DNA from: a virus
Reading direction: 5' to 3' (one strand)
Length of the DNA: 24,861 nucleotides
Virus record (IMG/VR): IMGVR_UViG_3300022602_000399
Coordinates: 1-24,861 of that record
This document shows positions 142 through 11,623 of the stretch, in pieces. The position numbers and the translations under genes were made by a program. A model generated the notes under the pieces. The model searched no databases. It was not told the DNA's origin and worked only from the letters and a program-made list of their open reading frames with translations. Numbering within the stretch: position 1 is the first letter of the stretch; each line of letters begins with the position of its first letter.

Positions 142-170
142 TTGACACCACCTTCGGGTGGTGTTATACT
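142..170 (+). promoter_or_regulatory. sigma70-type promoter TTGACA-17-TATACT
   Basis: A consensus -35 box TTGACA (142-147) is followed by exactly 17 bases and TATACT (165-170). A second TATACT lies at 172-177 in a short tandem repeat ending in ACTATAG (175-181). The first gene start (ATG 198) follows, with an AGGAG ribosome site at 188-192. The match to the host-type consensus is near perfect, so early transcription by host RNA polymerase is likely. The spacer is almost wholly occupied by the hairpin at 145-164, which is unusual. Confidence 0.8.
145..164 (+). terminator. cUUCGg hairpin after the partial gene (weak terminator or processing hairpin)
   Basis: The arms ACACCACC (145-152) and GGTGGTGT (157-164) pair perfectly over 8 bp around a TTCG loop closed by C-G, an exceptionally stable tetraloop that is common between T4 genes. 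It lies 20 bases after the upstream stop codon. The following bases are TATACTATA rather than a run of T, so efficient intrinsic termination is doubtful. It may instead protect an mRNA 3' end or act as a palindromic operator inside the promoter. Confidence 0.5.
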
Positions 171-197: not shown

Positions 198-1382
198 ATG
201 TCACATACAGATCCAATTATCGACAAAATTATCGTAGCCCGTGTGGGTCTACTACTACGCCATCCATTTTTTGGTAACTTGGCAACACGTTTAAAAATTG
301 AGGAAGGATCTGAATGGATGGGCACTGCCGCTACAGACGGACGTACCATTTACTTTAATCGTAAATTCTTTGAGCCACTATCAATTAAACAAGTAGAATT
401 CGTTATTGCACACGAAATCTTGCATAACGTGTTTGATCATATGGGCCGTCGAGAAGGTCGCAATCCGCGTATCTTTAACATTGCCGCTGACTATTGCGTC
501 AACGGTCAATTAGTCCGTGACCGCATCGGTGAACACGTTATCGAAGGCATTACAATCTTCCATGATCCTAAATATTACGGAATGGGTGCGGAAGAAGTTT
601 ACGATAAAATCTTCGACGAAATGGATGAAGACGAGCTTAATCAATTAGGTCAACTATTAGATGATCACATTGACTGGGGTGAAGATGGCAAAGACGGTCA
701 GCCAAAGTATAGTAAAGAAGAACTAAAACAAATTCGTGACGAGATTCGCGAAGCTACTATGCAAGCCGCACAGGCCGCAGGTGCAGGTAATACTCCTGCA
801 AACGTGCAACGCATGATTAAGGAATTAACAGAGCCTAAGATGAACTGGCGTGAAATTTTGCGTCAACAAATCCAAAGCACTATTAAAAACGATTATTCAT
901 TTATGCGTCCAAACCGTAAGGGCTGGCACATGAATGCCGTATTACCAGGACAGCAATATCAAGAAACAATTGATATCTGTGTAGCAATTGACATGTCAGG
1001 GTCAATCGGTGATGAGCAAGCAAAAGACTTCTTATCCGAGATTAAAGGAATTATGCAAGAGTATAAGGACTTTAAGATTAAAGTATGGTGCTTTGATACC
1101 CGAGTTTATAACGAAGCAGACTTCGATGGTTATAACATGGACGAGTTCGACCACTATGAGCCTATGGGCGGTGGTGGTACTGATTTCGATGCTAACTATG
1201 ACTACATGAAACAAAATGATATTCAGCCTAAGAAGTTTATCATGTTTACAGACGGATATCCGTTTGGTTCATGGGGTGATGAAAATTACTGTGATTCAGT
1301 ATTCATTATTCACGGTAATGACAAAATTGTTCCTCCTTGGGGCGAGTACGCATACTACGAATTTGCCAAGGAAACAGTTTAA
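198..1382 (+). CDS. Zincin/VWA-like putative metallopeptidase (DUF2201-type, COG3864-like)
   Basis: This 394-residue protein has two recognisable parts. Residues about 10-110 form a zinc-peptidase-like domain with AHEILHNVFDH: the HExxH pair is H72/E73/H76, with H81 nearby, followed by NIAADYCVN (94-102) as in the DUF2201 N-terminal family. Residues about 255-394 form a von Willebrand A-like domain with a MIDAS motif DMSGS (265-269), GGGTDF (325-330) and TDG (351-353), giving the three expected metal-binding loops. An acidic, helical linker lies between. Such proteins usually partner AAA+ ATPases in metal-dependent assembly or remodelling; the phage substrate is unknown. ATG 198 is supported by AGGAG at 188-192. 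The gene is the first in the rightward operon and overlaps the next start by one base (TAATG). Domain identity is well supported; the enzymatic role is not. Confidence 0.88.
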   Translation: MSHTDPIIDKIIVARVGLLLRHPFFGNLATRLKIEEGSEWMGTAATDGRTIYFNRKFFEPLSIKQVEFVIAHEILHNVFDHMGRREGRNPRIFNIAADYCVNGQLVRDRIGEHVIEGITIFHDPKYYGMGAEEVYDKIFDEMDEDELNQLGQLLDDHIDWGEDGKDGQPKYSKEELKQIRDEIREATMQAAQAAGAGNTPANVQRMIKELTEPKMNWREILRQQIQSTIKNDYSFMRPNRKGWHMNAVLPGQQYQETIDICVAIDMSGSIGDEQAKDFLSEIKGIMQEYKDFKIKVWCFDTRVYNEADFDGYNMDEFDHYEPMGGGGTDFDANYDYMKQNDIQPKKFIMFTDGYPFGSWGDENYCDSVFIIHGNDKIVPPWGEYAYYEFAKETV

Positions 1383-1669
1383 TGGCATTAAAGAACGGCA
1401 AACCCAACCCTTTAAACTATTTTGGTCTACGTAGGGTTGAGGTTGCCTGCCCTCATTTCAAATACACGAACGTAGACAAATATAATCCTAACTTACTCAG
1501 ATCTATAGACTCTTGGATTCAAAAGAATTTAAATAATAGGTATTATGTAGGACAAGATATTTCGTTAGATCATACCAATACCATAGTATATGTAACACGT
1601 ATTGGTTTTGAGTCTGAAAAGGAACTCAGTTTCTTCACGATTGCCTGTCCTCATTTACAGACTAGATAA
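1382..1669 (+). CDS. Small hypothetical protein with two CPH motifs (95 aa)
   Basis: The ATG at 1382-1384 overlaps the stop of the VWA gene (TAATG), so translation is probably coupled. An upstream in-frame ATG at 1337 lies inside the VWA gene and is less likely. The protein has no family I recognise. It contains ACPH at residues 22-25 and again at 88-91, giving Cys23/His25 and Cys89/His91, which could make a four-ligand metal site. Between them are a short helix (SIDSWIQKNL) and a likely beta-hairpin region. The two motifs are encoded by a nearly identical 16-base repeat. Its place in the operon suggests a role with the VWA protein, but this is inference. Confidence 0.7.
   Translation: MALKNGKPNPLNYFGLRRVEVACPHFKYTNVDKYNPNLLRSIDSWIQKNLNNRYYVGQDISLDHTNTIVYVTRIGFESEKELSFFTIACPHLQTR
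1443..1656 (+). repeat. In-frame 16-base direct repeat inside the 95-aa gene
   Basis: The unit at 1443-1458 (TTGCCTGCCCTCATTT) recurs at 1641-1656 with one mismatch. The spacing is 198 bases, a multiple of three, so both copies encode (V/I)ACPH followed by F or L. The copies lie near the two ends of the 95-aa coding region. Confidence 0.7.
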
Positions 1670-1698
1670 TTATATTAGTACACAATAAGGAGATTTAT

Positions 1699-1956
1699 AT
1701 GTCTGAAGTACAACAAGACGCACAACAACAAGCACCAACAAATGACCTATCGGTTAATGACTTAAATGCAATGAAAGTAATCATTGACATTGCTAGTTCA
1801 CGTGGCGCATTTAAACCAAACGAAATGGTTGCAGTAGGACAAACTTACACTAAATTGACATCATTTTTAGATGCTGTTGCCGCTCAACAAAAAGCACAAG
1901 AAGCTGGCGCACCTGGCGCACCACAAACAGCAACATCAATCGCTACCGGAGCTTAA
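1699..1956 (+). CDS. Conserved-type small hypothetical protein (85 aa)
   Basis: ATG 1699 is preceded by an AAGGAG ribosome site at 1687-1692, the clearest in the rightward operon. The N-terminus is Gln-rich and polar. Residues 17-60 form the only likely folded core, helical, including IIDIASSRGAF and VGQTYTKLTSFL. The C-terminus is an Ala/Gly/Pro/Gln-rich, probably disordered tail. Small proteins with this helical pattern are, as I recall, common in T4-like phages of aquatic bacteria and have no known function. It ends one base before the next ATG, so the two genes are probably co-translated. Confidence 0.8.
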   Translation: MSEVQQDAQQQAPTNDLSVNDLNAMKVIIDIASSRGAFKPNEMVAVGQTYTKLTSFLDAVAAQQKAQEAGAPGAPQTATSIATGA

Positions 1957-2897: not shown

Positions 2898-3578
2898 ATG
2901 GATGTCCGATTACTTAGTTACAGCCAGCCAACACAAGAATTTGCTTCTATGGGCATTGATGATGCGCAGGAACTTATTGCGTATTGTGCCCGTGTGTCCA
3001 ACCCTTCCAACCAGCTTAACACTGAAACATCAGAAAAGCTCATCAAATATCTCATCAAACACAAGCACTGGTCGCCACTCGAAATGGTCAGTGCCTGTAT
3101 TGAAATCACAACAACAAGAGATATTGCAAGACAAATCCTCAGACACAGAAGCTTCAGCTTCCAAGAGTTTAGCCAACGTTACGCTGATCCAACGAAGGAT
3201 CTTAACTTCGTATTGCGAGATGCACGTAAACAAGATACGAAAAATAGACAGAACAGCGTAGACTTAGATATTCAAAATAACGATGAAGATCGTTTTCTTG
3301 CTTATCAATGGGAACGTATGCAAGAGCTTGTTATTAAACAATCACGCGATGCATACGAATGGGCTGTTAGTAAAGGAATTGCTAAAGAGCAAGCTCGTGC
3401 AGTATTGCCCGAAGGACTAATTGAAAGTAGAATTTATATGAATGGTACTTTACGTAGTTGGGTACACTTTATCGAGTTACGTAGTTCAAATGGCACACAG
3501 AAAGAGCATCAAGAAGTTGCTATTGCATGTGCCAAAGTTATTGCAGAAATATTTCCATTAACATTAGACCTTATTTGA
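2898..3578 (+). CDS. thyX: Flavin-dependent thymidylate synthase ThyX
   Basis: This 226-residue protein has the diagnostic ThyX motif RHRx7S: RHRSFSFQEFS with R82-H83-R84 and S92, followed by QRY. Other family features are the HKHWSPLEM segment (55-63), ISxxxDIARQILRH-like helix (74-83), and a C-terminal block ARAVLPEGLIESRIYMNGT plus LRSWVHFIELR (about 166-195) that holds dUMP-binding and catalytic arginines. ThyX makes dTMP from dUMP using methylene-tetrahydrofolate, FAD and NADPH, supplying thymidine for phage replication. Length is typical of the family and all key residues are present, so the enzyme should be active. Start ATG 2898 directly follows the upstream TAG. The final 15 bases overlap the 3' end of the opposite-strand gene. 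Confidence 0.96.
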   Translation: MDVRLLSYSQPTQEFASMGIDDAQELIAYCARVSNPSNQLNTETSEKLIKYLIKHKHWSPLEMVSACIEITTTRDIARQILRHRSFSFQEFSQRYADPTKDLNFVLRDARKQDTKNRQNSVDLDIQNNDEDRFLAYQWERMQELVIKQSRDAYEWAVSKGIAKEQARAVLPEGLIESRIYMNGTLRSWVHFIELRSSNGTQKEHQEVAIACAKVIAEIFPLTLDLI

Positions 3579-4325
3579 TCCTCTGGGTCTAAATGTAATT
3601 GGAGTCTCAGTCGGTTTAAATAGTTCTGGGGGAAATTGTTGTGTATGTCCCCAGAACTCCGATTCTAACCAATCATAATCATTTATTTTAGATAACATCG
3701 CAGGGTCATCTTTATACTTGGCTCCGAACCATTCTCCCGCACTCGCACCGCCTCTAGAGTATTCAGCATACAGTTGAACACTAGGATTATATCTCCAGAC
3801 TTTTAGCCTTTCGATAGTTTCTTCCTGATCTTGCCCAGGAATTATACCACTTGCCAGTTTAGCACATTCTCTGAATGCACTACGCCAAGTACTAAGCGAA
3901 TCAGTATTAAATTTAGTCACATTAGAAACAATTGGTATGGCTTTGAATCGTTTTGATATGCTAGTGGTCATGTCAGTATTATTAACATCCATGTTCAATG
4001 TTAATTGGGTGGGTAAGAGCTTAACTCCACCGTATCCGTATTCCAAATTGTTAATAGGATTTCTACTTCTCCATACATGCACAATGTCTTCTTCGCTTGG
4101 ATCTAGTTTTAAATTAAATCTAAAACTAGGCAATATAGTTGCATCAGCATCTACTACATAAAACATAGGAGTAGTAACCATCTTAGCCGCTTCAATGTGA
4201 GCTTGATGAATACCTTTAACTCCGTGTACTCTAAATATATTATTACGGAGATTTAATGTAGTTAACTGTATGAATCCAATGTTAGCAGTTTTTTCATTAT
4301 AAGATATGTAGACAATATCGTACAT
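3564..4325 (-). CDS. GT-A-like glycosyltransferase candidate, paralog 1 (253 aa)
   Basis: The N-terminus IVYISYNE is a typical first beta strand of a GT-A nucleotide-sugar-binding fold. RVHGVKG (32-38) is followed by a helix and FYVVDADATILPSF with a DAD (59-61), a DxD-type metal/nucleotide-sugar motif. YGYGGVK (96-102) and WRSAFRECAK (147-156) are shared at matching positions with the next upstream gene, showing a tandem duplication. The sugar donor and acceptor cannot be read from the sequence. ATG 4323-4325 overlaps the previous stop (TAATG). This is the last gene of the leftward GT operon, and its final bases lie antisense to the end of thyX. No terminator hairpin is visible downstream. 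Confidence 0.78.
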   Translation of the reverse strand: MYDIVYISYNEKTANIGFIQLTTLNLRNNIFRVHGVKGIHQAHIEAAKMVTTPMFYVVDADATILPSFRFNLKLDPSEEDIVHVWRSRNPINNLEYGYGGVKLLPTQLTLNMDVNNTDMTTSISKRFKAIPIVSNVTKFNTDSLSTWRSAFRECAKLASGIIPGQDQEETIERLKVWRYNPSVQLYAEYSRGGASAGEWFGAKYKDDPAMLSKINDYDWLESEFWGHTQQFPPELFKPTETPITFRPRGSNKV

Positions 4326-5221
4326 TATCGTTTCCTAATAATTCTAGGGCTATTGTTGAATACTGTTTTAAAAAATTTACTTCCTGTGACATCAACATTT
4401 GTAATTTCTAAATCACATTCGTGTTTCAATGTTTCACCTAATCCCATAATTTCATAAGGTAACATTTCTTCAGTAATCTTGCTGTACTTAGTTTCCCACT
4501 CATTTGTTAACCATTCGAAATCACGAACATTTGCATAATCCCAATCTGTACAATTAGTCAAGTATGCCCCTTCTCTTGCACCGTATATGCTCCAATTTCC
4601 ATTAGGAACATCAGCGCCTACATTACACCAAATTAATAATCTATGGTAATTTTGCCACCAAACTTTTTTAAGGTCTTTTACCTTAGCACCTTGGTCTAAT
4701 GACATCTTAACACCTTCACGGAATCCTGCTCGCCATGCTTGGAATGGACTTGCATTAGTAAAACTTTCACTATAATTTTCGTTAAATTGATAGTACTTGT
4801 CATCAAAACAAAATTCAACTAGTCCTTTAGTGTCATCAGGATCTGAGTTTTCATGTGTACGCATTTCATTTACAAATTTACGTGTCCACATTTTAAGGCC
4901 ACCATTACCATACATAAGTCCGTTAACGTGTACTTTTCCACACCAACTAAACACATGATCAGGTGTTAATCCTAATTCATCTAAATCAATTTCAACTTCT
5001 AAAAACGCAGGATCTACAATATTATCAGCATCTACTGTAACAAAGTATTCTGTTTCACTCAGTGCCGCGCATGCCTTATGTGCGGCATCACTACCTTTAA
5101 CACCATGCACACGTTTTGCCCAAGGTACTTTGTTACATAAGTCAGCATAATTTTTCTCAGCATTAGGTTCGTCGTAACTGAGGAAGATAATGTCTTGTTC
5201 GATAATTTTAATTTTGCTCAT
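4325..5221 (-). CDS. GT-A-like glycosyltransferase candidate, paralog 2 (298 aa)
   Basis: IIFLSYDEPNAEKNYADL opens the protein and resembles the nucleotide-sugar-binding strand of GT-A enzymes. RVHGVKG is at 37-43, the metal-binding-type DAD at 64-66 in YFVTVDADN, YGNGGLK at 104-110, and WRAGFREGVK at 163-172. All four blocks align with the neighbouring 253-aa protein. The second half is Trp- and Tyr-rich (VWWQNYHRLLIW, NWSIYGAREG), which may form an acceptor or sugar site. It starts inside the 3' end of the upstream gene (14-base overlap). The family assignment rests on motif order and fold pattern; the exact GT family was not determined. Confidence 0.8.
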   Translation of the reverse strand: MSKIKIIEQDIIFLSYDEPNAEKNYADLCNKVPWAKRVHGVKGSDAAHKACAALSETEYFVTVDADNIVDPAFLEVEIDLDELGLTPDHVFSWCGKVHVNGLMYGNGGLKMWTRKFVNEMRTHENSDPDDTKGLVEFCFDDKYYQFNENYSESFTNASPFQAWRAGFREGVKMSLDQGAKVKDLKKVWWQNYHRLLIWCNVGADVPNGNWSIYGAREGAYLTNCTDWDYANVRDFEWLTNEWETKYSKITEEMLPYEIMGLGETLKHECDLEITNVDVTGSKFFKTVFNNSPRIIRKR

Positions 5222-5819
5222 CTATTTTCCAGGTTTTTAAAGAATAAGAAAGACTCGATATATTAGACGTAATTGCAATAGTGTCTATAATTCTTTCCCA
5301 CTCTGTATTAAATTTAGCAATAATTGGCTTGCTTATCAAATCTTTTAGATCAATAGTAATTGTACGAATTAAAAAGTTTGGATCGTTTCCTAGTATAATA
5401 TAAAATGATATTTCTGTAGTAGGAAATTGATTACTCAAAAACTGAGTTTTTAAATCTTCAGAACAACTGAAAACCCACTGCCCGTTATATTCGTCCCACC
5501 CGATTAGAATGTCATGATTTTCTGACTCGTCTTCTATCCATGCTAATAATCTATTTTTAAAATTGTGTTCTAATAATAATTTATGGGATACTAATCCTAC
5601 AGAAGAATTCCCAGATGCATCTATAACTGTTCCTATATGAAAGTCTTCGAACTTTTCTTTGCCTAATAACAGCCGCTCATATTGATCAAAGTCAACTTCT
5701 ATAGCATTATTGTTTGTAGTATCTCTGAAATTATTTACAGAAACTATCTTATTATTAGTATCGTAATGTACATAAAATCGAGGAGTTAAGTCGACAACTT
5801 TTTTACTTTTTTTAGCCAC
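5208..5819 (-). CDS. Unrecognised protein between the two GT pairs (203 aa)
   Basis: No family is recognised. The N-terminus is Lys-rich (MAKKSKKVVDL), followed by a beta-rich stretch FYVHYDTNNKIVSVNNFRD, a helix with YERLLLGKEKFEDF, and a later region with WIDE-like acidic turns (LLAWIEDESE, IGWDEYNGQW). There is no signal peptide, membrane segment, DxD motif or Cys cluster. It overlaps the upstream gene by 8 bases and the downstream gene by 14, so it belongs to the same translationally coupled operon. It might be an accessory factor or the modified substrate; nothing in the sequence decides this. Confidence 0.8.
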   Translation of the reverse strand: MAKKSKKVVDLTPRFYVHYDTNNKIVSVNNFRDTTNNNAIEVDFDQYERLLLGKEKFEDFHIGTVIDASGNSSVGLVSHKLLLEHNFKNRLLAWIEDESENHDILIGWDEYNGQWVFSCSEDLKTQFLSNQFPTTEISFYIILGNDPNFLIRTITIDLKDLISKPIIAKFNTEWERIIDTIAITSNISSLSYSLKTWKIDEQN

Positions 5820-6639
5820 CGTGTAACTCCTTTAATTTTTTAATTATTTGAGGAGATAAGAAATCTTTTTCTACATAATGAAATAATTTTTGCTGTTTTA
5901 TATTACCCACAGTTAAGTCACCTGTAAAGTTATATAATACAGAATTTTGCCAACTAGTCGCATCTGTATTCCATTTTTGTAAAGGAACTTTCATATGAAT
6001 AAATTCCATAGGATTTAACGTGTCTAGTACTTGCATACCTGTAATCTCTATGGCAATGGCTGTTGCTAAATCCATGCTAGACCATTGTTGATATTCGTTA
6101 GGTGCAAACTTAGTCCAACACCATTCCCAGTTATTGCATACAAATTCTAACACTTTATAAAAATCCCGTGCTTCATCGGATTTTTTAAAATAATGCAATG
6201 CAAAGTATGGGCTTGATAAATTGTTTGCTATAAATGCTTTACGATGAAATATGTCAGTTACTGTTTCTAATTTATGATTTTTAATTCTGTTACAGAATCT
6301 AACATTATGATTACTACAGTAGTTCCACCATAATGATATATCATCTAACATAAGCATATCGGTATCCAATACAATCGTCTCGTCATACGGACTTGCATAG
6401 TATACTTGATAACGATGTTCTGTTTTAAAATTAGAATTTATATCGTTATTAAAATATGGAATTGGTATAATCCTATCAAATACTGATTGGTACTCTTCAG
6501 GAACTGGATCATTAGTAATCAAACTAATATTGTCGATTGAATTCTGAGATAACTTAATACTCAGTGCTAATGCATACGCTTGCTGAACATAGTCAACAGT
6601 ATCTGTATTTTGTGCTAATACTAAAAATCCTTTAGACAC
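5812..6639 (-). CDS. GT8-like glycosyltransferase candidate with DTD motif (275 aa)
   Basis: The start MSKGFLVLAQN and the core SPYDETIVLDTDMLMLDD (83-100) give a GT-A fold pattern with a DxD at 92-94, of the sort seen in GT8/glycogenin-like enzymes: a beta strand, DTD, then a hydrophobic strand. A VYYASPYDE lead-in and a downstream helical, aromatic-rich region (NNWEWCWTKF, 168-177) follow. The next gene upstream matches it at both the N-terminus and the DxD block, so the two are paralogs. Late in the protein, KLFHYVEKDF resembles the His-containing C-terminal loop of GT8-type enzymes, though this is a weak point. Donor and acceptor are unknown. Overlaps of 8 bases on each side indicate coupled translation. 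Confidence 0.8.
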   Translation of the reverse strand: MSKGFLVLAQNTDTVDYVQQAYALALSIKLSQNSIDNISLITNDPVPEEYQSVFDRIIPIPYFNNDINSNFKTEHRYQVYYASPYDETIVLDTDMLMLDDISLWWNYCSNHNVRFCNRIKNHKLETVTDIFHRKAFIANNLSSPYFALHYFKKSDEARDFYKVLEFVCNNWEWCWTKFAPNEYQQWSSMDLATAIAIEITGMQVLDTLNPMEFIHMKVPLQKWNTDATSWQNSVLYNFTGDLTVGNIKQQKLFHYVEKDFLSPQIIKKLKELHGG

Positions 6640-7480
6640 CGCAACCTCCGTCTATAAATCGACTAAGGCTAAATTTATTCATAACATGAACATCTAAATT
6701 TGTAGTCTTTGCTAGTATGTATTCTCCGGCAAAATCTTTTTTACCTACTAAAAATTTCATAGTGCCATCGACTGCTTCAACTAAAATATCAGTGTCTCGT
6801 ATGTAAGTCATTTTGCCAGGTAATTCTATTGCAAAATTACCTCGTATTTTTCCATCCATTATATGTATAGCAATACTAAATGCATAGTCATTTCTAAATA
6901 ATACACCTTCGATATTATAAAGTTTTCTAAAATAATTCCAATTAGTTTTAATATAAGCAATTAAATTAAAAAATGATTCCATCAACGGATTCTTTTTAAA
7001 AACAAAAACAGTGGCCCAATAAAAATCAATGCTTTGAGGATTGATTCTTTCAAATTCTTGATTGGATCGCCATCCTGCCAAATCAATGCTTTGAGAATAT
7101 ATTTGAAAATCAACATCTTTATCAAATGCTGTTTTTAATACATCACTATTAATTATAAAATCACTATCTATAACTAACGTGATATCATAAGGACTTAATT
7201 CATACGCTTGATTTCTTGCAAAATTTTTCCAATCTAATCTAGTAGAAGATAGTTTTCCATCGAAAAATTGCTTGCGCTGTACTTCGTTAGGCTGATGAAT
7301 TCCTATAATTTTATCAAAAGGATGATCGGGTTGACTAGTGCGTAACCAGTCTGGACTATCAGTTATAATGCTAACTGGGACTTGCAGGTATTTCTGTGCC
7401 TGTCGTGCGGCATAAGTTGCTATCTTTACATAGTCAATTTCAGAATTATTTTGTGCAAATAGTACGATACCTTTGGTCAT
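6632..7480 (-). CDS. GT8-like glycosyltransferase candidate with DSD motif (282 aa)
   Basis: MTKGIVLFAQN at the start and SPYDITLVIDSDFIINSD (96-113), with DSD at 105-107, mirror the blocks in the 275-aa neighbour, showing an ancestral duplication. Before the motif, the KNFARNQAYELSPYD helix also fits GT8-like or related GT-A folds. After it, the sequence FYWATVFVFKKNPLMESFF looks like the strand-helix segment after the nucleotide-sugar site. The late segment DVHVMNKFSL may be the counterpart of the C-terminal HxxxK-type loop. ATG 7478-7480 lies in an ATGA overlap with the small upstream gene. The catalytic role is inferred from the DxD and the pattern only. Confidence 0.78.
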   Translation of the reverse strand: MTKGIVLFAQNNSEIDYVKIATYAARQAQKYLQVPVSIITDSPDWLRTSQPDHPFDKIIGIHQPNEVQRKQFFDGKLSSTRLDWKNFARNQAYELSPYDITLVIDSDFIINSDVLKTAFDKDVDFQIYSQSIDLAGWRSNQEFERINPQSIDFYWATVFVFKKNPLMESFFNLIAYIKTNWNYFRKLYNIEGVLFRNDYAFSIAIHIMDGKIRGNFAIELPGKMTYIRDTDILVEAVDGTMKFLVGKKDFAGEYILAKTTNLDVHVMNKFSLSRFIDGGCGV

Positions 7481-7821
7481 AGTTCGATAATATCTGCTAT
7501 TTTTCTTTTAGATTTAATGTCTGAATACTTTTTGAAATATTTTTCAGAAGCATCTCTATATGCTAAAATTATATCGTTTAAGAATTTTTTTGCATTTGGG
7601 ATTTTGACAGGAAGATTATTTGAGTCAATTAAAATCAAATCGAATGGACTGTCGCATGTTGCCTTAACAAATCCAATTAACTCGGGAGTAATTTTAAATG
7701 TTGCACCGTCTATATAGTAGATTAATGCTTGATTGTATTCTTCTAAAATTATACGTTTTTGATTAGCCAATGTTGCCATATAATTAGCAACAGCAAAGGC
7801 TTTTTCGATTTTCTCGTCCAT
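7477..7821 (-). CDS. Small conserved-type hypothetical protein, first gene of the GT operon (114 aa)
   Basis: The start is placed at ATG 7819-7821, which has a CGGAG ribosome site (7829-7833) seven bases upstream. A longer reading from GTG 7849-7851 would put the first codon inside the -10 box of the promoter, so it is rejected. The protein is mostly helical at both ends (KAFAVANYMATLANQKRIILEEYNQ cut at 20 residues here: AVANYMATLANQKRIILEEY) with a central YIDGATFKITPELIGFVK and a strand LILIDSNNLPVKI. Proteins like this occur in T4-like phages of aquatic hosts, from memory, with no known role. It is the leader gene of a six-gene overlapping operon. Confidence 0.82.
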   Translation of the reverse strand: MDEKIEKAFAVANYMATLANQKRIILEEYNQALIYYIDGATFKITPELIGFVKATCDSPFDLILIDSNNLPVKIPNAKKFLNDIILAYRDASEKYFKKYSDIKSKRKIADIIEL

Positions 7822-7833
7822 GAATAAACTCCG

Positions 7834-7853
7834 TAGTGTACTATAATACACTA
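7834..7853 (-). repeat. Inverted repeat across the GT operon -10 region
   Basis: TAGTGTA (7834-7840) and TACACTA (7847-7853) are perfect 7-bp arms around six bases. Together they cover the -10 box and expected start of transcription. An 8-bp palindrome ACTATAGT at 7850-7857 overlaps one end. The location suits a repressor or activator operator, but no regulator is known. Confidence 0.55.
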
Positions 7854-7871
7854 TAGTAATTATCTTGTCAA
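7843..7871 (-). promoter_or_regulatory. sigma70-type promoter TTGACA-17-TATTAT for the GT operon
   Basis: On the minus strand, TTGACA (7866-7871) is followed by exactly 17 bases and TATTAT (7843-7848). The first start codon is 22 bases beyond the -10 box, with CGGAG in between. The promoter sits in the 62-base gap after the stop of the structural gene at 7884. It is host-type, unlike the ATAAATA boxes of the fibre genes, so the GT operon is probably transcribed earlier or independently. Confidence 0.8.
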
Positions 7872-7883
7872 GAATTTAGGTAA

Positions 7884-9128
7884 TTAAGATCCGGTAATCG
7901 TGTTAGTTGTTTGCGTCGGAATCGTTACTTGAACATAAGTTCCGCTTGGCCATACCGATTGAACCTTGCTAGTCAAAGTACAGGTTGCGCTGACATATTC
8001 ATCAACTCCGTAAGTGCCGTGACCACTAGTTGTTGCATTATCTTGGAATTGAATACTAAATGTTATCGAAGTAGCAGTTGCATACGTACCGTTTAGGTTA
8101 GCGTAGATATCATATTGATTAGGATAATATACAGCATCAGTTGATGAAGAAACTGTTTTATTAAATATGTTAGTAGAAGTAGATGTTAAGTTTGATACAC
8201 CTGCTGTACTTACAATACTAGTATACGTTCCACTACAAGTCAAACTATTATAGTTCATAGTAATGGTACCAATACTGCTTAGTAGTGTAGACCAATCTAA
8301 TTCTTTAGCGTAGGATGTGCCATCTGTACTTGAATTATAACCTGTCAATGATGCACTAAATTGTAAATTTCCGCCAGCATTGAAATAACCGCGAAGTTGT
8401 GCATTGGTAGACCATGTTAATGTCAAACTATGCGTTACTAAAGTCTTCCATTGTGTACCTGTAAACACACCTTGAGAGCCGGTTGTTATGTTTATTAAAC
8501 TAGATTGACCTGCTCCTAGTGTTAATGGGTTTGTATTGATCGAATTTGCCAATGCTAAGTAGTTTGCAAAATCTGTAGCACTAATTGTTCCGCCTGCATT
8601 GGCCGCTGCCTTAGCAGGAATCGCAGGAATAGTTAACCCACCTATACTACCTTGGTGAGTATACGCATTAATCAAGTCTTGTCTAAGTGCAACCCATAAC
8701 GATGCTGGAACGGAAGAACCAACTGTGGCAGTACTAGTAGCGTTAATATATGGAGTAGACGATAATCCGTATCCGTATGTACCCGAACCCACTCCTAATA
8801 CGTTGCTCGTAATGGCCTGTATGTAATTGTAATCTGCGGCAAGTACAGTTGCGGCCGATGTACCAGTAACATTTGTTAATGGCGTACCGATTGAGCCTTT
8901 AGCTTGACTAATACTAACAATATAAGTGCCAACACCACCTGTGCCTGTACCAAATCCTAATATATGAGTGTTAGCAGAAATTACATTTGATGCAATTGGG
9001 GAAGTATAAATCCACATTCCCAAACTAATTGTTCCGCTGGCTACAGAGGTTACCGTTAGAATCGTACCTGGCGTACCGCTAGTACCATTACTAATATATC
9101 CCGAAAATGTAGCTGTTGTTGTTGACAT
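7884..9128 (-). CDS. Structural protein with N-terminal GVGTY-type module (414 aa)
   Basis: Residues 1-90 are a Ser/Thr/Gly-rich beta module with GTGTGGVGTY at 60-69, also present in two other structural proteins here. From about residue 95 the protein matches the next gene upstream: AADYNYIQAITSNVLG, an AYTHQGSIGGLTIPAIP block, then TITMNY, YPNQYDIYA and a TFSIQF strand. The composition (Thr/Ser/Asn/Gly, almost no Cys) and position suit a tail or fibre accessory protein. Function beyond that is not visible. It has its own late-type box (9151-9158) and an AAGGTGAG ribosome site before ATG 9126-9128. It is the last gene of the structural block. Confidence 0.83.
   Translation of the reverse strand: MSTTTATFSGYISNGTSGTPGTILTVTSVASGTISLGMWIYTSPIASNVISANTHILGFGTGTGGVGTYIVSISQAKGSIGTPLTNVTGTSAATVLAADYNYIQAITSNVLGVGSGTYGYGLSSTPYINATSTATVGSSVPASLWVALRQDLINAYTHQGSIGGLTIPAIPAKAAANAGGTISATDFANYLALANSINTNPLTLGAGQSSLINITTGSQGVFTGTQWKTLVTHSLTLTWSTNAQLRGYFNAGGNLQFSASLTGYNSSTDGTSYAKELDWSTLLSSIGTITMNYNSLTCSGTYTSIVSTAGVSNLTSTSTNIFNKTVSSSTDAVYYPNQYDIYANLNGTYATATSITFSIQFQDNATTSGHGTYGVDEYVSATCTLTSKVQSVWPSGTYVQVTIPTQTTNTITGS
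8858..9117 (-). repeat. GVGTY module, copy 1 (N-terminus of the 414-aa protein)
   Basis: The encoded segment contains SGTISLGMWI, then GTGTGGVGTYIVSISQ. It has the pattern LTVTxVxSG, xIxxG, and GTGGxGTYxxSxSQ found in the other three copies. Boundaries are approximate. Confidence 0.65.
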
Positions 9129-9182: not shown

Positions 9183-10079
9183 TTATGGTCCAGTATATAC
9201 CACGGTTGGCAATGCTACTGAAACATTGGTGCCAGATGAATATAAAGATTTGACTGTACTAGTCAAAGTTCCTTGAATGTTTTCATCAACTGTACCTGTG
9301 GACAAGTCTGCAAATTTAATACTAAATGTTATCACTGTACCCGATGAATCTACACTAGCATAGATGTCATATTGGTTTGGTGTATATGTAGGACTTGCTG
9401 TTAATTTTTGGAATATTAACTGAGGTGTCGTAGTTAATTGGTAATAACCAACCGTCGACGCACGTTGAGTATAACTACCTGTACTTGTAGTACTGGCATA
9501 ATTCATAGTAATTGTTCCAATACCCGTTAATAATGTATTCCAGTCTGTATCTTTTGTGCTAGGTCCAGTATCACCGTAACCTGATAAAGATGCAGTAAAT
9601 TGAATGTTGCTTCCTGAATTAAAAAATGCTCTAGCTGCCGCAAGGGTGTTAAATGTTAAAGTTACTGTATGAGTAATTGTTCCATTCCATTGTGTAGAAC
9701 GAGAGCTTGAACATAGTGTAGCTAAACTAGCTTGGCCACCTGAAGGTGTTGTAGTTGCATTTGCATAAATGGCATTGCATAACGCAGAATAGCTTGCATA
9801 ATCTGCGGCAGTTATTTTATTTGTATTAGAAGGAATTCCTGGAATTGTAAGATTTCCCGGAGATCCTTGATGCAAGTACGCATTCACAATATCGGTTCTC
9901 AAATTTACCCAATCACTAAGTTTAATTGGCAGATATTTTCCGCCAATCGAAGTTAGTTGTGAACTTATTACTTTTTGATTGTATCCGTAATACGATGTAC
10001 CCGTACCTAAAACAGTACTAACTGTAGATTGCAATACATTATAATCGCTTGCAAATATTTTAGAACCTTGAGTTGCCAT
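9183..10079 (-). CDS. Structural protein paralogous to the 414-aa protein (298 aa)
   Basis: The protein aligns along most of its length with the downstream 414-aa protein: KIFASDYNVLQSTVSTVLG, DIVNAYLHQGSPGNLTIPGI, GIGTITMNYAS, YTPNQYDIYAS, and a TFSIKF strand. It lacks the N-terminal GVGTY module. It is beta-rich, Thr/Ser-rich, without membrane segments. It starts 8 bases after the preceding stop, with TAAGGT overlapping that stop as ribosome site, so it is co-transcribed with the 511-aa gene. A virion role (tail or fibre-associated) is inferred from composition and position. Confidence 0.83.
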   Translation of the reverse strand: MATQGSKIFASDYNVLQSTVSTVLGTGTSYYGYNQKVISSQLTSIGGKYLPIKLSDWVNLRTDIVNAYLHQGSPGNLTIPGIPSNTNKITAADYASYSALCNAIYANATTTPSGGQASLATLCSSSRSTQWNGTITHTVTLTFNTLAAARAFFNSGSNIQFTASLSGYGDTGPSTKDTDWNTLLTGIGTITMNYASTTSTGSYTQRASTVGYYQLTTTPQLIFQKLTASPTYTPNQYDIYASVDSSGTVITFSIKFADLSTGTVDENIQGTLTSTVKSLYSSGTNVSVALPTVVYTGP

Positions 10080-10087
10080 AATTTACC

Positions 10088-11623
10088 TTATAGTATCACA
10101 CATTCAAGTAATCTAACACCTGGATTACTGTCGTCTACTAGACAAATTGCAAACACATCTGCATTAGTACCAAAGACTGGATCGTTAGGAATAGCAGTAC
10201 CATTAGGACCTGCTATTAATTGAGTGCCTTTAGTAATTGGGCCGTTAACTAATGTAGGAACACGACCTTTCAATGCAATATATGTACCACCTTCTAAGTT
10301 TTGATTCATCTTAAATGCTGGGTTAGTACTAACTACACCGATTGGTACATCGCCTTGGCCAGATGCTGTAACTTCTGCTGGGCCGCCAACTGAAATTACT
10401 GTGCCTGGAGGATACTCTTTGTCCATTAAATATTTTTCTGCCAAGTCAGCATAGTCTGCACTTGTAGCAGTTCCATTAAATGTTGTGGCATAAACTGTAT
10501 TATTAACATCGCGAGCAACAACAGTATTCGCAGTATTCGCAGTTGTTGCGGAAACATATACACCATTAAGTGCTATATTGTTTGCGTTTGTAGCAGTTCC
10601 TAAAAAGTTACTAGCATAAACACTATTCCATTGATAAGTTGAACTACCAATATTGTTTATACCGTTACTAAATGGAAGATTAGCATTAGAACCGCCTGGT
10701 AATAAATCCGTGCCTTTCATAGTCAAGGGATAAGCAGTTGCTTGATTTGACAATGTAGTTTGGAATGTTACTGTATCGGATACAGCATTTTGTATTGATG
10801 GGAATCCAGATGTTACGTTGTTATAGATCTTCAATGGAGGAGCTACCGCAGGTCCAATTGTAATACCCGAACTTGGGAAATTCACAGTACTAGTAAAATT
10901 AGGATTAGATGCTAACAAGTACTGACTAGCAGTTTTACCGCCTAACTGGTCTGAGTTTGTTGCTGTTCCCCAAAATCTGTGGCTAACGCTAGCATCTGTT
11001 ACGCCGGCTGTGGCGCCATTTTCGCTAGAATCTGTATAAGCTAAAGTTACACCTTGTTGAATTGTACCGAATCCAGTAATTGTGTTAACGCTGTTGTTTA
11101 AAGTAAAAGCAGGATCAGAACTAACTACAAAAATCGTGTGACCATTGTTAATTGCTTGAATAATAGGATGTGAATTACCGCTTTGATCCTGTACAGTAGT
11201 AGATTGCATTTGTGTTAAGCCTGCACCTGATACACCCTGTGGGCCTACTAGTGTAAATGCTGATCCGGTATATGCAAATAACTGGTTACTGGCAGTATTA
11301 AACCACATATCGCCTACGGTTAAACCGCTTGGAGCACTAGTTCCAATGGTTGCTCCGCCGCAAGTTCTCCAATTTGTGCCATCAAAAAACTTTAATTTTG
11401 TTAAACCTGGTGTACTATCAAACCAAATCTGGCCTGCTAATGGGCTTGGTGGTTGAGAAGTATTTGCAAAATTCTCAAGTAGCCACACAAAATTATCATT
11501 TTGAGCTTGGCCATAGCCGGCATAATTCTTACCAATCAGGGTAAGATCGGTTGTTGTATCAACGGTACCGTCTGCAACTGTGGTTAAATTGATACCGTTA
11601 TAATGATTAATTGTGTATGACAT
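10088..11623 (-). CDS. Fibre protein with shared N-module and Peptidase_G2/IMC-like C-terminus (511 aa)
   Basis: Residues 1-110 carry the module shared by three neighbouring fibre genes: LIGKNYAGYG, NDNFVWLLENFAN, PLAGQIWFDS and a KFFDGTNW turn. The centre is a Thr/Asn-rich beta region. From about residue 389 it has YADLAEKYLMDKEYPPGTV, GGPAEVTASGQGDVPIGVVS, then NPAFKMN and YIALKGRVP. This matches the pattern of Peptidase_G2-like (intramolecular chaperone, autocleaving) C-terminal domains of phage fibres. Such domains help trimer assembly and are often removed by self-cleavage; which residue would cut is not clear from sequence alone. Preceded by a late-type box at 11645-11652 and AAGGAAC before ATG 11621-11623. 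Confidence 0.82.
   Translation of the reverse strand: MSYTINHYNGINLTTVADGTVDTTTDLTLIGKNYAGYGQAQNDNFVWLLENFANTSQPPSPLAGQIWFDSTPGLTKLKFFDGTNWRTCGGATIGTSAPSGLTVGDMWFNTASNQLFAYTGSAFTLVGPQGVSGAGLTQMQSTTVQDQSGNSHPIIQAINNGHTIFVVSSDPAFTLNNSVNTITGFGTIQQGVTLAYTDSSENGATAGVTDASVSHRFWGTATNSDQLGGKTASQYLLASNPNFTSTVNFPSSGITIGPAVAPPLKIYNNVTSGFPSIQNAVSDTVTFQTTLSNQATAYPLTMKGTDLLPGGSNANLPFSNGINNIGSSTYQWNSVYASNFLGTATNANNIALNGVYVSATTANTANTVVARDVNNTVYATTFNGTATSADYADLAEKYLMDKEYPPGTVISVGGPAEVTASGQGDVPIGVVSTNPAFKMNQNLEGGTYIALKGRVPTLVNGPITKGTQLIAGPNGTAIPNDPVFGTNADVFAICLVDDSNPGVRLLECVIL

Follow-up and report, generated by a model that had tools for sequence, protein, structure and literature searches.

A conserved operon behind phage tail-fibre genes suggests that viruses sugar-coat their own tail fibres or their host

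IMG/VR record IMGVR_UViG_3300022602_000399 is a stretch of viral DNA of 24,861 bases (hereafter the window; coordinates are window positions) in which a series of fibre-like genes is followed by a compact cassette of six genes. From its head, the cassette consists of gene D (P0006), b1 (P0005), B2 (P0004), C (P0003), A1 (P0002) and a2 (P0001). The five core genes, D-b1-B2-C-A1, are inherited together as a single operon of overlapping frames immediately behind tail-fibre genes, and four of the block genes are, on the evidence of predicted structures and profile comparisons, two pairs of glycosyltransferases with the GT-A fold and an invariant metal-binding DxD motif. Phage glycosyltransferase clusters are known already; what is new here is a promoter placed inside a conserved inverted repeat that spans the ribosome site of gene D. 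The conservation of such a cassette behind fibre genes suggests that the viruses sugar-coat their own tail fibres or their host.

The block is made up of six minus-strand open reading frames (ORFs; Table 1), which overlap successively by 4, 8, 8, 14 and 1 bases, so that the six-gene overlapping operon of the original prediction, which had been drawn from the window alone, is present as described. In the ORF list the first frame is given as 7477-7851. Since the GTG at 7851 falls between the -35 and -10 hexamers of the cassette promoter, gene D most likely starts at the ATG at 7821, behind GGAG. The two paralogous pairs that had been proposed to flank a 203-amino-acid protein were recovered by profile comparison (below), with the DxD motif at D59-A-D61 in P0001, D64-A-D66 in P0002, D92-T-D94 in P0004 and D105-S-D107 in P0005. 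Downstream of the cassette lies the convergent gene thyX (2898-3578; PHROG thymidylate synthase, E 3e-78).

Conservation of the block was assessed in 245 loci from four IMG/VR scans, which were reduced to 124 clusters by the removal of overlaps and near duplicates. The collection was seeded with cassette proteins, and therefore the presence of a single gene reflects selection, whereas order, strand and neighbours do not. The arrangement D-B-B-C-A was found in the same order and on the same strand in 104 of the 124 clusters, with a second A gene also in 99, and neighbouring frames overlap in 96-100% of cases, depending on the junction. Of the 95 loci in which the upstream side could be assessed, 92 have a fibre gene ahead of D at a distance of no more than 400 bp, and thyX is next downstream in 70 of 77. 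The divergent loci have lost thyX and retained the fibre side, which makes the fibre linkage the older one; of the proposed placement between fibre genes and thyX, the fibre side is thus constant, whereas thyX stands outside the block and follows it only in one clade. Median pairwise identity is highest for A1 (0.76), followed by D, b1 and B2 (about 0.6 each), a2 (0.54), the adjacent fibre (0.35) and C (0.28). Nine matches in genome bins of other organisms mostly have this gene order, but with one A gene only, and are probably phage contigs that were binned with bacteria. The fibre-cassette arrangement in bacterial bins includes loci L269 and L275 (335- and 153-kb contigs in a Neomarinimicrobiota bin) and L270-L274, probably jumbo phage DNA. 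Some loci depart from the standard layout: a2 is fused to extra regions in L018:8897-10930, L161:4893-8696, L040, L150 and L223, giving proteins of about 350 to 1268 amino acids (the extra regions that were scanned gave no confident Pfam match), whilst L235:8864-9322 and L236 carry between b1 and B2 a 153-amino-acid insert protein with hydrophobic stretches, as judged by eye.

None of the six proteins could be placed in a family with confidence by sequence searches of Pfam, PHROGs, NCBIfam and PADLOC. The assignment of P0002 and P0004 as glycosyltransferases therefore leans on predicted structures, which settle what sequence alone leaves thin. P0002 matches Glycos_transf_2 (PF00535) in Pfam at E 0.13, scoring 12.6 bits against a curated cut-off of 23.3, and weak matches to the same family occur in 26 of 45 of its homologs (best E 0.0083). 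Its structure model (predicted local distance difference test score, pLDDT, 90.2; predicted template modelling score, pTM, 0.88) has a GT-A core at residues 1-156, for which the best structural matches are the glycosyltransferase 6p61 (Z 10.3) and B4GALNT1 (Z 10.1); the top Foldseek matches are SunS/ThuS, cellulose synthase and RmlT (E 2e-4 to 1e-3). The nucleotidyltransferases IspD and MobA share the core fold at Z of about 9, so it is fold and DxD together that argue for sugar transfer by P0002. P0001 is a paralog of P0002 (hhalign probability 99.95) and, judged by this profile homology, has the same GT-A fold. In its GT-A core with DxD, P0002 resembles GT2-type enzymes such as the SunS/ThuS S-glycosyltransferases, WrtF and the polypeptide GalNAc-transferases; it differs from them in falling below the curated cut-off, in having a helical C-terminal half of its own and in belonging to a paralogous pair.

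The second pair is closest to glycogenin. The P0004 profile reaches glycogenin-2 at E 0.0056, and the structure model (pLDDT 93.2, pTM 0.92) aligns with glycogenin over 207 of about 250 residues (Z 16.1, root mean square deviation 3.6; Foldseek E 4e-8), followed by GlyE, LARGE1, UGGT and LgtC; matches in BFVD are mostly unnamed proteins of uncultured phages and add no function. P0005 is paralogous to P0004 (hhalign probability 99.6) and, again by profile homology, has its GT8-like fold, whilst no profile relation was detected between the two pairs (hhalign probability 0.1). A late invariant histidine is part of the GT8 pattern, as in LgtC and glycogenin; the invariant H254 of P0004 and H265 of P0005 fit this pattern. 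Neither protein reached any GT8 model of Pfam or NCBIfam. With the GT8 enzymes glycogenin, LgtC, GlyE and LARGE1, P0004 thus shares the GT-A fold over nearly its full length, the DxD and the late histidine, whereas sequence identity to them is 9-13%, no Pfam family was reached, and the gene stands with its paralog in a phage operon of overlapping frames. For each of P0001, P0002, P0004 and P0005, all 45 of the diverse homologs compared retain the DxD. The claim of a self-contained glycosyltransferase cassette is therefore supported by a GT-A core in both modelled proteins (and, through profile homology, in their paralogs), by the retention of the DxD and by conservation of the block as a whole.

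The original prediction had also assigned the cassette a host-type promoter, TTGACA-17-TATTAT, distinct from the late box of the fibre genes. This promoter is present at 7871-7843, and no other site in the window matches without a mismatch. A single exact site in 25 kb proves little, and the claim is therefore carried by conservation across 93 relatives: a sigma-70-like promoter scoring at least 10/12 lies between the fibre stop codon and D in 72 of these 93 loci, as compared with 5.4 expected from shuffles. The contrast with the fibre genes holds as well, in that the late box NATAAATA precedes three fibre-block genes in the window and, across loci, is found before the fibre gene fib10088 in 60 of 70 sequences and before D in 1 of 102; the exact late box TATAAATA, by contrast, is absent from the window. 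Indeed TATAAATA is depleted both in the 345-kb relative G002 (loci L247-L264; 18 against about 59 expected) and in the window (0 against 4.9). Elsewhere in the window, a gene of the von Willebrand factor A (VWA) type at 198 has a promoter, TTGACA-CCACCTTCGGGTGGTGT-TATACT (142-170, plus strand), the spacer of which is a near-perfect GC-rich inverted repeat. In PHROG 1314 and several records, the VWA/peptidase-like protein (201-1379, plus strand) is labelled 'HNH endonuclease' or 'homing endonuclease', apparently a misannotation that is spreading.

The cassette promoter is nested in an inverted repeat (in the window, AAGATAATTACTATAGTGTATTATAGTACACTACGGAGTTTATTC-ATG). Folding energies of the leaders lie far below those of shuffled sequences (median z -3.2, with 74% below -2), at other start sites of the same phages z is about 0, and within the 345-kb relative the element was found at this start site only. 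The arms of the repeat covary in relatives, including those in which the -35 box has been lost, and in a model-fitted alignment 31 cells were doubly changed with the pair kept, as compared with 9.7 in shuffles; the covariation excess is small in a close subset of leaders. No Rfam match for the leader was found. To compare the two possible transcripts, the RNA from the inner promoter was modelled as starting about 6 bases after the -10 hexamer, and hence without the 5' arm. Across 73 leaders the ribosome site has a median predicted probability of being unpaired of 0.26 in the read-through RNA, as compared with 0.49 in the inner-promoter RNA (p 7e-9). Two results count against such an RNA gate: the gain is small in the window itself (0.32 to 0.37), and RNAalifold recovered no pairs from a free MAFFT alignment of the leaders, so that the evidence for the leader lies in the per-sequence z-scores and the model-fitted alignment. 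It is possible that the inverted repeat is a DNA operator rather than an RNA gate. The leader model has a weak second match at 1662-1701 (plus strand; E 0.17; AGATAATTATATTAGTACACAATAAGGAGATTTATATG), which ends at the ATG of an 85-amino-acid ORF at 1699.

The closest known parallel is found in phage T4, where the ribosome sites of genes e, soc, 49 and I-TevI are concealed in hairpins and where gene e is translated efficiently only from mRNA that begins at a late promoter inside the 5' arm (PMC3014915). The cassette leader may share this promoter-in-hairpin layout, as predicted from its sequence. The promoter classes differ from those of gene e: T4 has a late promoter inside the arm and silences early read-through mRNA, whereas the inner promoter of the cassette is of the sigma-70 type and the upstream genes carry a late box. 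A gene for a 241-amino-acid protein in locus L258 of G002 (about 11558-11600, minus strand; start at 231558 in G002) has the late box TATAAATA within a strong hairpin (-19.3 kcal/mol) that pairs its ribosome site, so that this phage lineage also contains the gate in its classical T4 form.

Table 1. Features of the cassette and its surroundings in the window
Feature	Position	Strand	Remarks
Gene D (P0006 from second start)	7477..7821	-	114 amino acids; without known family; heads block in relatives
Gene b1 (P0005)	6632..7480	-	282 amino acids, GT8-like; DSD motif; C-terminal H265-x-x-N-K
Gene B2 (P0004)	5812..6639	-	275 amino acids, GT8/glycogenin-like fold; DTD motif
Gene C (P0003)	5208..5819	-	203 amino acids, evolves fast; without known family
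Gene A1 (P0002)	4325..5221	-	298 amino acids, GT-A (GT2-like), helical C-terminal part; DAD; best conserved of block
Gene a2 (P0001)	3564..4325	-	253 amino acids, GT2-like A1 paralog; DAD; some relatives lack it or have it fused to extra domains
Tail-fibre-type gene, immediate upstream neighbour of cassette	7884..9128	-	31% Ser+Thr; candidate acceptor
Second tail-fibre-type gene, same family as 7884..9128	9183..10079	-	30% Ser+Thr
Cassette promoter, sigma-70-type TTGACA-17-TATTAT	7843..7871	-	at least 10/12 in 72/93 relatives vs 5.4 expected
Inverted repeat GATAA..GTAGTGTA/TACACTAC..GGAG..TTAT, conserved	7819..7867	-	surrounds -10, start site and Shine-Dalgarno of gene D

The phages that carry the cassette belong to a jumbo T4-type lineage. 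Five long relatives (128 to 356 kb) encode a T4-type major capsid protein, and that of the 345-kb relative is 73% identical to the protein of Sinorhizobium phage Phosso, 71% to that of Vibrio phage 2.275.O, 68% to that of PA5oct and 67% to those of the Erwinia SNUABM phages, which places the lineage near these phages. The 345-kb relative also has a cluster of 28 tRNA genes in L260 (G002:260001-280000) and a tmRNA-like (transfer-messenger RNA) match in L261. In PA5oct, gp357-360 match the block upstream of the cassette (gp360 matches the last fibre by reading of its N-terminus alone) and are probably virion proteins, given that the record notes electrospray ionisation tandem mass spectrometry (ESI-MS/MS). 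In Phosso and Atu_ph07 (the loci L278 and L279), a radical S-adenosylmethionine (radical-SAM) cluster occupies the place of the cassette behind the fibres, and divergent relatives of the cassette (L156, L158, L175, L241-L244) have radical-SAM, B12-type radical-SAM, GDSL-like and NAD-epimerase genes behind it. As radical-SAM clusters occur at the same place with or without the cassette, the region that follows the fibres resembles a modification island of a general kind. The clusters of Phosso and Atu_ph07 were considered as diverged copies of the cassette, and this was rejected because the A, B, C and D profiles give nothing above 5 bits there.

Glycosyltransferase clusters of jumbo phages and cyanophages have been described as sporadic and polymorphic (PMC7824862). 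The moraphages, described as another, mainly freshwater, jumbo lineage with mostly predicted Bacteroidota hosts, have four core putative glycosyltransferase families (PMC12619734). Like the cassette, both represent several glycosyltransferases in large aquatic phages, with four families in the moraphages, whereas the parts read of these sources describe no six-gene block of fixed order linked to fibres. The four families of the moraphages (OG 0000011/25/26/28) had prompted the idea that the two lineages are identical; at the level of the phage lineage this was rejected because the capsid protein of a long relative leads to Phosso, PA5oct and the SNUABM phages instead. No earlier description of a fibre-linked, fixed-order cassette or of its leader was found in the literature searched.

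That the cassette is a phage protein-glycosylation system with the fibres as its acceptor is the favoured reading, which we would stop just short of calling probable. The GT8-like pair B2/b1 (expected to be retaining) and the GT2-like pair A1/a2 (expected to be inverting) would work one after the other: the first pair to act would attach the initial sugar of a glycan to a fibre protein rich in Ser/Thr/Tyr, the second would lengthen that glycan, and nucleoside diphosphate sugars of the host would serve as donors. Fast-evolving C may serve as a fibre-specific adaptor and D as a small partner. Host-type RNA polymerase would transcribe the cassette from its own promoter, with a start inside the inverted repeat that leaves the Shine-Dalgarno freer, whilst late read-through mRNA from the fibre genes would include the whole hairpin and be poorly translated; the enzymes would thus be made before the fibres and independently of them. 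The full scheme, in which two enzyme families glycosylate the fibres with C as adaptor and in which their translation is confined to the early mRNA of the cassette, late fibre mRNA yielding none, as an inverted T4 lysozyme gate widespread in T4-type jumbo phages, is speculative and unlikely to hold in every part. The constant position of the cassette, its soluble enzymes (no membrane segment was found in any of the six proteins; maximum 19-residue hydropathy 1.11) and its Ser/Thr-rich neighbours are in favour of a fibre acceptor. Virion proteins are known to be glycosylated in a mycobacteriophage system (Freeman et al. 2023, cited in PMC12619734), where the glycans are on capsid and tail tube, as against fibres as the candidate for the cassette. 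Distance matrices of C (and b1) track the adjacent fibre better than do those of D, B2 and a2 (rho 0.24 against -0.11 to 0.01); a first test had looked stronger, and the figures given are those of the better-controlled one.

Several points tell against the fibres. The co-evolution signal is weak, its difference to A1 is not significant, and the adjacency of fibres and cassette may reflect vertical inheritance only. PA5oct has related fibre genes with no cassette behind them, so fibres do not need the cassette, and as these fibres are nearly as Ser/Thr-rich, richness does not discriminate. The possession of its own host-type promoter also argues against tight co-expression of the cassette with the late fibres. 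The same promoter suggests early expression, and would suit a cassette that, early in infection, alters a host surface glycan such as capsule or O antigen, either excluding competing phages or freeing progeny. A comparison of 224 jumbo phages interprets their glycosyltransferase clusters as modifying polysaccharides to counter superinfection (PMC7824862), and the NAD-dependent epimerase and GDSL-type genes that follow the cassette in divergent relatives are in keeping with this. We nevertheless hold a host glycan to be an unlikely target: the core has neither membrane segments nor flippase, polymerase or sugar-nucleotide genes, its content and order are fixed whereas the clusters of that comparison vary, and the constant fibre linkage is left unexplained. 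Serotype-conversion gtr clusters likewise differ from the cassette in having a membrane flippase and a membrane-anchored glycosyltransferase.

An intracellular host protein or small molecule as the substrate, with no link to the virion, would agree with the early-type promoter, the soluble enzymes and the radical-SAM genes, which occupy the equivalent position in Phosso and Atu_ph07, lie beside the cassette in divergent loci and suggest a more general modification island; as it does not account for the fibre position in 92 of 95 loci, we consider it rather improbable. Glycosylation of hypermodified phage DNA against restriction can be given very little credence, although phage glycosyltransferases often act on DNA (PMC12619734) and, within this clade, most loci have the dTMP gene thyX next to the block. 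Its low standing is due to the search for PF00303 (thymidylate synthase/dCMP hydroxymethylase), which found nothing in ten records, including the relatives of 345 and 356 kb, although the records may be incomplete; the control was positive in 9 genomes. T4-type DNA glucosylation, by contrast, goes with a hydroxymethylpyrimidine synthesis gene. In addition, divergent loci keep the cassette without thyX, and the GT8-like folds resemble protein and sugar glycosyltransferases; a search for Tet/JBP gave no match, but its control was also silent, and it is therefore uninformative. Among the targets that the original prediction had named, modified DNA is thus disfavoured, whilst the fibres and a host glycan are both still candidates.

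The operon is rigidly conserved in more than 100 uncultured viral loci, and yet a tblastn search of 50,697 named phage records with P0002, P0004 and P0006 found no homolog of any of the three. With its leader, the idea that the choice of promoter governs translation can be tested cleanly, in a setting in which the logic of T4 gene e is retained and the promoter classes are swapped. Should the acceptor prove to be the fibres, both receptor binding and antigenicity of these phages would depend on a glycan that is invisible in the sequence, which would matter for the prediction of hosts from fibre genes.

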